Positions 52,243 to 55,949 of a stretch of 64,000 nucleotides of DNA are shown piece after piece. Source of the stretch: Algoriphagus hitonicola (GTDB lineage: Bacteria > Bacteroidota > Bacteroidia > Cytophagales > Cyclobacteriaceae); the NCBI RefSeq assembly GCF_900113375.1, contig NZ_FOPC01000002.1, positions 124,001-188,000 of the forward strand, in the 5' to 3' direction. Numbering within the stretch: position 1 is the stretch's first letter; every line of letters starts with the position of its first letter. A model generated the notes under the pieces. It was not told where the DNA came from and ran no database searches. It saw only the letters and a program-made list of their open reading frames with translations. The position numbers and the translations under genes were made by a program.

Positions 52243-53046
52243 ATGTCCAACTACATCCACGGCTACCTCTCCGATGAACAGGAACGATTACTGAATCAAG
52301 CGGGAACATTGGCTTCGCTGATTTATCCGTGGATCGATTTTTCCACATCCAAAAAGCTCCTCGAAATTGGATCCGGGGTCGGTGCCCAGAGTAAACTTTT
52401 GCTGGAGCTCTATCCGGAGATTGAACTGACCTGTGTGGAAATCGAGGCCAGCCAACTCGAAAAAGCGCAAGTCAATTTAGCTTCGTATTCGGATCGGAAA
52501 ATAGACTTTGTTCAGCAGGATGCTCAGCAGCTCAAGCTGGAGAAGACATTTGACTCAATTTTCATTTGCTGGGTCTTGGAGCATTTATCTGAGCCACTCG
52601 ATGTTTTGGGTCGGGCTTTTGCCCATTTGGATCCAGGAGGAATTATTTATTTGACCGAGGTTTTCAATTCCAGTTTTCATATTTTCCCCAAGTTAGGGGG
52701 CTTGACCGATTATTATTCTGCATTTAATGCATATCAACTACAAAACGGTGGAAACCCAGATATCGGACTGCAGCTAGGTAATCTCCTCGACCAATCTGGA
52801 TTTATAGAAATAAAGCTAAATCACGGAGGCTTTCATCTCGATCAGTCGCAACCCGAATCCTTGGCCGCCATGTGTGACTATTGGAAGTCACTGATGAAAA
52901 GTGCCGCTGAAGGCATGAGAAGTTGTGGCCTGATTTCTGAAAGGGAAGTGATACAAATGGAAAAAGACCTCGACCAACTCAAAACCGAGAAGAATGCGGT
53001 ATTTTTTTACCAATTTGTACAGGCAAAAGCAACCCGCCCTTTATGA
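52243..53046 (+). CDS. Class I SAM-dependent methyltransferase
   Basis: A 267-residue Rossmann-type methyltransferase. Motif I is LLEIGSGVGAQSKLL, the acidic end of strand 2 is TCVEIEASQ, and motif post-I/IV appears in DFVQQDAQQLKLE and SIFICWVLEHLSEPLDVLG. It has a C-terminal substrate-facing region after about residue 165 that matches no specific subfamily. The methyl acceptor is unknown. It overlaps mtgA by 4 bp, so it is translationally coupled with that cell-wall gene, but that does not define a substrate. Confidence 0.85.
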   Translation: MSNYIHGYLSDEQERLLNQAGTLASLIYPWIDFSTSKKLLEIGSGVGAQSKLLLELYPEIELTCVEIEASQLEKAQVNLASYSDRKIDFVQQDAQQLKLEKTFDSIFICWVLEHLSEPLDVLGRAFAHLDPGGIIYLTEVFNSSFHIFPKLGGLTDYYSAFNAYQLQNGGNPDIGLQLGNLLDQSGFIEIKLNHGGFHLDQSQPESLAAMCDYWKSLMKSAAEGMRSCGLISEREVIQMEKDLDQLKTEKNAVFFYQFVQAKATRPL

Positions 53047-53738
53047 CACTTTTCCGACAAATAGGAAAATTCTTCCTGAAGTTAACCCTTTGGTTTTTCA
53101 TCGTTTCGATAGGTTTGGTGATCATATACCGCTTTGTACCTGTGCCCATTACTCCGCTGATGGTGATCAGACTGGTGGAGCAGGGTTTTGATGAGGAAAA
53201 GTCCATGAAATTGAAAAAAGACTGGGTCCCGATAGAAAAAATCTCCAAAAACGTACCCCAGGCTGTGTATGCTGCCGAGGATCAGAAGTTTTTGGAGCAT
53301 AGTGGATTTGATCTTGAGGCCATGAAGAAGGCCTGGGAAGGCAATAAGCAAGGTAAAAATATCAAAGGAGCGAGCACCATTACACAGCAAACCGTCAAGA
53401 ACGTTTTTCTTTGGCCCAATCGCAGCTATATCCGAAAAGGACTAGAGGCTTATTTTACCCTATTGGTGGAGCTGATCTGGAGCAAAGAACGAATCATGGA
53501 GGTCTATCTCAATGTCATCGAAATGGGGGAGGGAATTTATGGAATCGAAGCCGCTGCTCAGCATTATTATCAAAAACCTGCCATCAACCTTAACCGCCAT
53601 GAATCGGCGATGATCGCAGCGGTTTTGCCCAATCCAAGACGCTGGAATCCCAAGCGTCCCACCCCCTATATCATTGGAAGACAAGCCTGGATTCTCCGGC
53701 AAATGAACAACCTCAACCCTATCGGATTTGGTATTTAA
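53043..53738 (+). CDS. mtgA: Monofunctional biosynthetic peptidoglycan transglycosylase
   Basis: A 231-residue membrane-anchored GT51 enzyme. One N-terminal helix (residues about 12-35) is followed by the catalytic motifs: AAEDQKFLEHSGFD (catalytic Glu), KGASTITQQTVKNVFLW, RKGLEAYFTLLVE, SKERIMEVYLNVIEMGEG and GIEAAAQHYY. It lacks a transpeptidase domain, so it is a MtgA that polymerises lipid II glycan strands. It is the last plus-strand gene before the DnaA-box region. Confidence 0.93.
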   Translation: MTLFRQIGKFFLKLTLWFFIVSIGLVIIYRFVPVPITPLMVIRLVEQGFDEEKSMKLKKDWVPIEKISKNVPQAVYAAEDQKFLEHSGFDLEAMKKAWEGNKQGKNIKGASTITQQTVKNVFLWPNRSYIRKGLEAYFTLLVELIWSKERIMEVYLNVIEMGEGIYGIEAAAQHYYQKPAINLNRHESAMIAAVLPNPRRWNPKRPTPYIIGRQAWILRQMNNLNPIGFGI

Positions 53739-54167
53739 AATTTGACTTTTCTAAGACCATTTGCACTTTTCAGAAAAAAGTAGGTGGAATTTGAAACAAT
53801 TTTCAAAAACGGGAATAAACATCCCTTGGCCAAGTTCCAAAACTCAAAATTTTATTCGCTTTTAATAGAAATTTGGACCCAAAATCCAATATTATCAAAA
53901 GATTAACCTCGCATAACTTTGGGATAAAAATCGCCTTTTTCTCAACGGATTTGAGGAATAAAAAAAACAAGAAATTTTTATCCACATTTTCAATAATTTA
54001 TCCACACTTTTCAACATGTAGGATTTATATTATTGATTTTCAGTAATTTAAATGATTGAAAAAAGGTCTAATTTTGTGGATAATAATCCATAACTCAATT
54101 TTTTTTCGAAAAATCAGATTTGAAAAGGTGGATAATTCCAAATTCCAAATTTTATTCTAAAACCTGA
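53739..54167. other. AT-rich DnaA-box cluster: candidate replication origin
   Basis: A 429-bp non-coding gap between convergent genes. It contains perfect DnaA boxes TTATCCACA at 53978-53986 and 53998-54006 (20 bp apart), the inverted TGTGGATAA at 54075-54083, and GGTGGATAA (one mismatch) at 54127-54135. Long A/T runs surround them (for example around 53940-53980 and 54095-54120). No RNA gene or terminator stands out. Alternatives are a DnaA-titration site or chance, which three exact 9-mers within 106 bp make unlikely. Confidence 0.65.
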
Positions 54168-55949
54168 TTAATCCTGCTTTTGTCGGATCAATCTTTTACG
54201 GTATGAATTAAAAATTCTAGATTTGGAGACAAAGCCTAAATAGACCCCATCCTCTACCACAGGGAGATTCCAAGCACCGGACTTTTCAAATTTATCCATA
54301 GCCTTTTGCATATTTTCATTAGAAAATAGAATTTCCGGAGGACTATGCATAAGCGTTTTTACTTGCAAGGTATCCTGCTTCTCCGCATCAAACATGATGT
54401 CACGAATATCATCCAAGGTGAGGATGCCACGCAGTTGCTTATTTTCATCTACCACAGGGAAAATATTCCGCTTGGAAATCTTTACCAAATCGATCAAATC
54501 ACGCAGGTAAGCCTCCGGATTGATCGGCAATAAATCCCGCTCAATCACATGAGAAATATCGATCATATCCAACAGTTCCTGATCTTTACTTTCCGGCAGT
54601 TGACGTCCTTTTTCTTTCAGTTGCTTGACGTAGATACTGTCCTTTTGATAATAAGTCGTGGTAATGTAAGAGATCGCCGACACAAACATCAGGGGAACAA
54701 ATAGTTCATACCCGCCTGTGATCTCGGCTATCAAAAATATCGCGGACAAAGGTGCATGCTGAACTCCAGCCATCACACCACACATGGCTACCAAGGTAAA
54801 ATGGGCCAAAGGCAAGGGAATATGAAAACCAACCAGGTTTTTGCTGTAGGCAAATAAAAATCCCACAATCCCCCCTACATAAAGCGAGGGAGCAAAAATT
54901 CCACCCGAGCCACCGGCTGCAAGGGTCAAAGCAGAAGCGATGGGTTTTAATAAAATGATCAGCGCCAAGAATATCAGGATCAAGTAGGGATTCTCGATGG
55001 CTGAGAAAAAGGGACTTTTCTCCAATATTTGATTTGCATTTCCGTCAATCAACAAATTCAAGGTGTCATATCCTTCTCCATAAATAGGAGGAAAGAAAAA
55101 CAACATGATTCCCAGCAAAGCCCCCCCGTAAAGAATGCGCATGGATTGACTTTCCAGCCCCTCCATAATCTTCTCCGTTCGGAGTACCACCCGGCTGAAG
55201 TAAAGGGAAACCACCCCACAAACCATCCCCAAAAGCAAATAATAAGGCATGTGAGCAGCGATAAACTCATCCTGAAGATTAAAGTTAAATGTAGCCTCCT
55301 CTCCTCCTATCAACAGCATCGAAGTCAAGGATCCCATCACCGATGCGATCAGTAAGGGAATGAAGCTCGCCGTACTGATCTCCAAAAGGATAACTTCAAT
55401 GGCGAAAATCACCGCACCAATAGGCGCACCGAAAATAGCAGAAATAGCCCCTGCAGCTCCACAACCGATGAGTAACGTTCTCTTTTTGGCATTGAGATGA
55501 ACAAGTAAGCCCGTATTGGAGCCAATGGCAGAACCTGTCACCAGCATAGGGGCTTCCAAACCTACCGATCCCCCAAAGCCCACGGTTAGGGCTGAAGTGA
55601 AAACCCTACTATAAGTTTTCACTCGGGGAATGATACTTTGCTTTTTAGAAATAGTAAACAACACGTCGGGGATACCATGTCCACCGACATCTTTGAAAAC
55701 ATATTTACCAAGTAGAAACGCCGCAGTAATCCCGATAATAGGATAAATGATGTACATGAAATTGGCATATTCCACATAAAATCCCTCCGTCAAAAGACGC
55801 TGAATCAAGTGCACCACCTCTTTGAGAATTACAGCAGCCAAACCTGAAAGCACCCCAATAATCCCACTGAGAATCAAAATAAAACTTTGATTGCTCATGT
55901 GGCGGAGGCGCCAGATTAATAGCTTGGTAATGAGGTCAGTTTTAGCCAA
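54168..55949 (-). CDS. ClC-family chloride channel/transporter with CBS domains
   Basis: A 593-residue membrane protein with 10 or more helices over residues 20-440 and two cytoplasmic CBS domains (about 455-590, for example IFPVVDENKQLRGILTLDDI and WNLPVVEDGVYLGFVSKSR). Selectivity-filter landmarks are GKYVFKDVGGHGIPDV, GFGGSVGLEAPML with the gating-glutamate position Glu132, and AAGGSGGIFAPSLYVGG (GxFxP). The usual GREGP motif reads GLEAP here, a variant seen in some bacterial ClC branches. It would be a Cl-/H+ exchanger or channel, with nucleotide regulation at the CBS pair. It is convergent with mtgA across the DnaA-box region. Confidence 0.88.
   Translation of the reverse strand: MAKTDLITKLLIWRLRHMSNQSFILILSGIIGVLSGLAAVILKEVVHLIQRLLTEGFYVEYANFMYIIYPIIGITAAFLLGKYVFKDVGGHGIPDVLFTISKKQSIIPRVKTYSRVFTSALTVGFGGSVGLEAPMLVTGSAIGSNTGLLVHLNAKKRTLLIGCGAAGAISAIFGAPIGAVIFAIEVILLEISTASFIPLLIASVMGSLTSMLLIGGEEATFNFNLQDEFIAAHMPYYLLLGMVCGVVSLYFSRVVLRTEKIMEGLESQSMRILYGGALLGIMLFFFPPIYGEGYDTLNLLIDGNANQILEKSPFFSAIENPYLILIFLALIILLKPIASALTLAAGGSGGIFAPSLYVGGIVGFLFAYSKNLVGFHIPLPLAHFTLVAMCGVMAGVQHAPLSAIFLIAEITGGYELFVPLMFVSAISYITTTYYQKDSIYVKQLKEKGRQLPESKDQELLDMIDISHVIERDLLPINPEAYLRDLIDLVKISKRNIFPVVDENKQLRGILTLDDIRDIMFDAEKQDTLQVKTLMHSPPEILFSNENMQKAMDKFEKSGAWNLPVVEDGVYLGFVSKSRIFNSYRKRLIRQKQD

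Follow-up and report, generated by a model that had tools for sequence, protein, structure and literature searches.

Where does replication begin on the chromosome of Algoriphagus, and could the short gap between two convergent genes described here hold that site? The gap lies in the window, by which we mean the whole 64-kb stretch of DNA that was analyzed (positions 124001-188000 of contig C22, which has 453,513 bases in a genome of 4.33 Mb and 33 contigs), and the ClC protein encoded beside it shares 95% identity with that of an Algoriphagus MAG and 92% with that of Algoriphagus faecimaris. A first-pass annotation had proposed a candidate origin from three exact DnaA boxes and one near match within 160 bp of AT-rich, gene-free DNA between convergent genes. 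Each of these descriptive elements was confirmed, with the four sites spanning 158 bp, and the features of the region are as follows.

53043..53738, plus strand: mtgA, monofunctional peptidoglycan transglycosylase, left neighbor (TIGR02070 above cut-off)
53739..54167, no strand: candidate oriC, the AT-rich DNA separating the convergent genes mtgA and clc (ORF-free, conserved array, skew of relatives)
53978..53986, plus strand: DnaA box 1, TTATCCACA, exact and kept in the 72-sequence alignment
53998..54006, plus strand: DnaA box 2, TTATCCACA, exact, 20 bp past box 1
54075..54083, minus strand: DnaA box 3, TTATCCACA, inverted, exact, at +97 from box 1
54127..54135, minus strand: box 4, TTATCCACC, one mismatch
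54168..55949, minus strand: ClC-type chloride channel gene (clc) with a CBS-like C-terminal part, right neighbor (ClcB-like match under the family cut-off)

The three exact TTATCCACA boxes span 106 bp and are the only exact ones in the whole 64-kb window, for which shuffles gave an expectation of 0.58; at least three exact boxes anywhere in the window arose in one of 100 shuffles. Counting the exact ones, the window has 26 sites with at most one mismatch, only a mild excess compared with the 16.5 expected. The gap itself (53739-54167, 429 bp) contains no ORF of at least 80 aa, and its AT content, taken in 60-bp steps, runs from 67 to 78% with the peak at the boxes. Throughout the genome, two exact boxes in direct orientation and 0-30 bp apart occur only once. 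An origin near dnaA was considered and rejected, as no exact box was found in the 3.5 kb around that gene; the array is on C22 and the best match to dnaA on contig C28, in agreement with the earlier expectation that dnaA may be located away from the origin.

Conservation of the array was examined within the genus and beyond it. The direct pair was present in 68 of 72 genus genomes and in all 50 of the good ones, the four genomes without it being 67-83% complete, and each of the 68 harbors a copy whose boxes are separated by 11 bp. The order mtgA, boxes at 0/+20/+97 (one at +96) and clc was observed in 28 of 30 loci, our own included, the remaining two being pairs with 13-bp spacing. These 13-bp pairs occur as second pairs in three of the 72 genomes (G008, G029, and G032), at L031 (G008:C58), L052 (G029:C23), and G032:C65:238349-238379, and both L031 and L052 are without mtgA and clc. 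A loose pattern recovered the array in 71 of the 80 named loci obtained via the ClC protein, down to 52% ClC identity, and these 71 plus the window comprise our alignment of 72 sequences; the nine loci outside it are five of Belliella, two of Reichenbachiella, L250 (without boxes), and L245 (which ends at a contig end). The 11-bp form is spread through nine genera (Algoriphagus, Pararhodonellum, Litoribacter, Echinicola, Aquiflexum, Cognataquiflexum, Rhodonellum, Marinoscillum, and Mangrovivirga), and the two Reichenbachiella loci conserve the array with boxes 19 bp apart. The neighbor retained across genera is clc, mtgA being present at 48 of the 80, namely the Algoriphagus-titled ones (except L245) and two otherwise titled MAGs (L191 and L218). 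One of the latter, L218, titled Spirosoma fluviale, exhibits the Algoriphagus-type mtgA-array-clc arrangement with 76% ClC identity, and its title may be wrong.

No array was detected within 700 bp of clc in L250 or in any of the five Belliella loci (L226-L229 and L248), so that the origin in Belliella may have moved or changed. In most Algoriphagus loci, the position of box 4 is occupied by TTATCCAC[TGC], and weak boxes (at most two mismatches) at +10 and +30, found in some relatives (12% and 31% of the 72), continue the 10-bp steps set by boxes 1 and 2. In a class-wide sample, 33 of 395 genomes had any pair 0-30 bp apart, four of them from the same genus, and no 11-bp spacing appeared outside the genus among the matches listed; at 33 of 395 genomes, the exact pair was rejected as a class-wide signature. 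The array occupies one conserved place per chromosome, which is what we expect of an oriC.

The stretch between boxes 2 and 3 has features of its own, listed here with one gene elsewhere on the contig.

54007..54074, no strand: AT-rich spacer, candidate unwinding region, 77-78% AT
54026..54050, no strand: palindrome-like spacer core resembling the IHF consensus, a conserved core in the alignment
C22:198741-199007 (L302): HU/IHF-family gene, from a family search of the genome

The 68-bp spacer is 77-78% AT, compared with 67-72% for the greater part of the gap to its left. By composition the spacer is a candidate unwinding element; DnaA-trio-like runs showed no excess (7 of 72 sequences versus 6.6 in shuffles). 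Against the IHF consensus, the core matched exactly in 28 of the 72 sequences and with at most one mismatch in 60, where shuffles gave means of 1.0 and 16.7 and maxima of 6 and 27. Of these IHF-like matches, 30 and 22 fall at two mirrored places, and the best match of the window itself is located at 54026-54038 on the minus strand with one mismatch. The sole HU/IHF-family match found in the genome is 21 kb away from the array (C22:198741). DnaA binding followed by spacer opening is the standard oriC mechanism. From the layout, we infer that DnaA would bind the direct pair of boxes to the left of the AT-rich spacer and the inverted pair to its right, with an HU/IHF-family bending protein possibly holding the center of the array; the DnaA assembly would then open the spacer, upon which the helicase would be loaded, as in origins generally.

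GC skew was sampled in four single-contig relatives (G021, G038, G056, and G014) using 21-22 pieces of 20 kb each; the skew and box analyses covered these four of five such relatives, the fifth being G030. The best-fit skew origin was at 260-370 kb in G021, with the array at 371 kb and of equal score, and at 5.14-5.28 Mb in G038, with the array at 5.264 Mb. In G056, it fell at 4.82-4.98 Mb with a free terminus (array at 4.977 Mb) and at 4.52-4.75 Mb, with a score slightly above that of the array, when the terminus was held opposite. The skew check placed the origin at the array in three of the four relatives, in G056 with the free terminus, but not in G014, where the best fit of 4.58-4.82 Mb lies 0.3-0.5 Mb off the array at 4.286 Mb, nor in the contig under study, where no skew flip was found at the array (-0.005 on its left side, -0.045 on its right). 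On the clc side, the skew of C22 is negative overall across ~275 kb, possibly owing to an assembly join or a recent inversion. Such an inversion next to the origin could explain both the missing flip and the G014 offset, and rearrangement here is common, given that a beta-lactamase-family gene described below differs between genomes in its side and distance relative to the array. Pending a closed genome, the missing flip and the G014 offset count as evidence against an origin, as do the slightly better fit of G056 away from the array with the terminus held opposite, the absence of the array near clc in Belliella, and the lack of a DnaA-trio excess.

The distribution of exact boxes outside the array bears on the same question. 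In our genome, 29 of the 72 off-array exact boxes lie on C22, which holds 10.5% of the bases (p = 5e-11). Among the matches listed for the four relatives, the boxes within 400 kb of the array numbered 37 of 84 in G021, 45 of 97 in G014, 31 of 97 in G056, and 37 of 97 in G038, where the expected share was 0.12-0.17 (p from 3e-7 to 2e-11). The density among these matches reached 4.6-5.7 boxes per 100 kb inside the 400-kb limit and 1.2-1.4 outside, a 3.4- to 4.3-fold difference, the matches listed being 87 of 87, 100 of 103, 100 of 115, and 100 of 121 and the densities referring only to the listed part of each chromosome. Merging boxes less than 5 kb apart weakened the enrichment among the matches listed without abolishing it (p = 0.004, 0.014, 0.0006, and 2e-6). 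The reversed motif was not enriched near the array in G014 (10 of 51, 8.5 expected) or in G038 (7 of 77, 9.7 expected). Within the matches listed, all four relatives thus have boxes denser near oriC, as a titration region should. Box orientation in G038:C1 follows the replication arm, with 28 of 31 listed matches on the plus strand at 2.10-4.47 Mb and 18 of 24 on the minus strand at 0.24-1.68 Mb.

Two dense clusters on C22 were examined as part of this enrichment.

C22:203295-206160: cluster A, 8 exact boxes in 2.9 kb, beyond the right end of the window, 25-28 kb on the clc side
C22:418078-438741: cluster B, 16 exact boxes in 20.7 kb, beyond the right end of the window

The first-pass annotation had named a skew minimum elsewhere, together with another denser box cluster, as grounds against an origin here, and this applies in part: the skew of C22 does not flip at the array, and looser clusters with more boxes stand on C22 at distances of 25 and 240-260 kb. 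Of the 24 boxes in clusters A and B, however, 23 are in called genes, and the clusters vary between species; for these two reasons we read them as satellites of the origin and rejected them as rival origins. The same intragenic placement separates them from datA and DARS, which are non-coding loci. The genes that host cluster A encode a LytTR response regulator, a histidine kinase, a protein whose TPR match is sub-threshold, and a TonB-receptor-like protein. Cluster B extends over many genes, including that of a 410-aa beta-lactamase-family protein with three boxes. The boxes lie in reading frames and on both strands. Tandem repeats were rejected as the source of these off-origin clusters, none having been found in L014 or L054. 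Elsewhere in the genome, contig C25 (L303:3491-4170) carries three exact boxes, two of them inverted relative to each other at a distance of 16 bp. The DNA around them is free of ORFs of at least 100 aa and adjoins an AraC-type-domain gene and a gene with ArdC domains; this cluster may belong to a mobile element.

That the array is a DnaA-titrating or -modulating locus of the datA or DARS kind near the true origin, and not the origin itself, would accommodate the unflipped skew of its own contig, the 0.3-0.5 Mb offset in G014, and the IHF-like site that datA also includes according to PMC5295017, but this reading is highly improbable in view of the lack of any other direct pair with 0-30 bp between boxes in the genome, the fixed order conserved across genera, the high box density around the array in four genomes, and the skew agreement in three of four relatives. 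Our prediction, with a probability of roughly 0.92, is that the mtgA-clc gap comprises the chromosomal replication origin of Algoriphagus species. The origin proposed in the first-pass annotation is supported by the unique pair, by the conserved place, order, and spacing, and by the agreement of skew origin and array in three of the four relatives with single-contig chromosomes.

This origin is very probably ordinary in kind. It resembles the E. coli-type continuous oriC located away from dnaA in its consensus boxes within one AT-rich intergenic region, in the IHF-like site among the boxes, and in having dnaA elsewhere. It differs from that type in that the array comprises two direct and two inverted boxes facing across a spacer and is flanked by convergent neighbors; the array here is known from sequence. 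We found no paper on the origin of Algoriphagus in the open-access literature. The box-rich coding domain around the array is the more interesting part, and it is new as a variant within the open-access literature searched.

To examine the boxes inside genes, codons were shuffled synonymously. Contig C22 has 28 intragenic boxes where 7.6 are expected under shuffling, a count reached in none of 50 shuffles; cluster A has 8 versus 0.58 and cluster B 15 in genes versus 2.1, each reached in none of 100 shuffles. Samples far from the origin, picked by distance (15 of 21 in G021 and 16 of 21 in G014), gave 3 boxes versus 3.1 expected in G021 and a slightly raised 8 versus 5.1 in G014, the latter reached in 4 of 50 shuffles. 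Across 17 relatives, the stretch 13-33 kb on the clc side held 70 boxes versus 8.1 expected under codon shuffling, a stretch that was selected because of cluster A; this set consists of 20 stretches minus L119, L122, and L125, in which the cluster-A genes were not found. Four of the 17 relatives with cluster-A genes had no box in that stretch.

Retention at synonymous positions was then compared in 17 of the 20 stretches, those with cluster-A genes, and, for the beta-lactamase-family gene, in 29 relatives (loci for 30 of 63 matching genomes, our own included). Where the amino acids across a box of our genome were identical, the box was kept in 53 of 71 cells, against a background of 3,807 of 34,087 (11%) when the remaining 9-mers of those genes are counted; shared ancestry makes the retention cells non-independent, and the background shares that ancestry too. 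Boxes were kept in 33 of 33 cells in the beta-lactamase-family gene, 16 of 24 in the response regulator, and 4 of 4 in the TonB-receptor-like gene. One kinase site (0 of 8) and the site in the sub-threshold TPR gene (0 of 2) were never kept, and the other kinase site offered no comparable cell. In a control built on the peptide VD[KN], non-box stretches in the same reading phase were kept in 1 of 22 cells and boxes in 14 of 19. In all 31 genomes, our own included, where the beta-lactamase-family gene and the array stand on one contig, the two are 22-355 kb apart, a range biased by the short contigs of many of these genomes; in the five single-contig chromosomes, the distances were 22, 23, 103, 185, and 207 kb. 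Codon shuffles, the reversed motif, and the VD[KN] control point to an excess beyond composition and coding, as is asked of a titration region, and selection on the intragenic boxes at the codon level is very likely.

What such selection would serve can be read in more than one manner. The intragenic boxes could be real DnaA sites that regulate their host genes or organize the origin region, not sites of titration, and the clustering of boxes in few genes, with some positions kept and others turning over, lends this some weight; given the four of 17 relatives whose cluster-A genes lack any box, the location of boxes within reading frames on both strands, and an enrichment spread over ~800 kb, we regard it as unlikely. 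That the boxes simply follow from codon usage or protein sequence, without a role, is improbable: many do lie in the frequent peptide VD[KN], and among 1,680 permutations of the box on C22 one is commoner (33) and two are equally common (32), so that the raw box count alone is unexceptional, but the shuffling expectation of 7.6 against 28, the rare retention of non-box VD[KN] stretches, and the unenriched reversed motif in G014 and G038 all argue against it.

Titration of DnaA is the candidate function that we slightly favor as the reason for the box selection, judging from the placement of the boxes. That DnaA is soaked up after the origin fires is the tenet of the initiator-titration model. 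Under this reading, the intragenic boxes, selected at synonymous positions and often clustered, would reach ~400 kb to either side of the array; soon after initiation, those within 400 kb would double in number and sequester free DnaA, and the DnaA bound by the doubled boxes would delay re-initiation. More broadly, it stands at about even odds that this Bacteroidota genus counts its DnaA via a candidate ~800-kb domain centered on oriC with a few dozen exact boxes, which lie largely in the codons of unrelated genes and would be selected at synonymous sites.

Two known systems are closest to such a domain. PMC12371093, whose main text names no Bacteroid*, describes a surplus of boxes around oriC in E. 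coli strains and in one Salmonella, links it to DnaA titration, and reports that E. coli boxes prefer the lagging strand. The high-density region of those species is similar to ours in its box excess centered on oriC and in the titration proposed for it. The controls were permuted motifs in that study (PMC12371093) and the reversed motif here; in contrast to those species, our case concerns another phylum and exact consensus boxes only, with clusters in genes and with retention at synonymous sites tested. In Bacillus subtilis, deletion of six box clusters outside oriC led to early initiation (Okumura 2012, as related in PMC5295017). The likeness to these oriC-proximal clusters, going by that account, lies in having several box clusters outside oriC; here, in contrast, the boxes are largely in genes, several clusters extend over ~800 kb, and the function is putative. 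No paper on DnaA boxes kept at synonymous sites was found in the open-access literature.

For Algoriphagus and its relatives, a precise and conserved candidate oriC is now given. If the boxes in codons titrate DnaA, the initiator-titration model would become testable far from E. coli. The boxes could then be removed by synonymous changes with the proteins left untouched, and the codons of the host genes would have a part in timing replication, with initiator titration encoded within protein genes.
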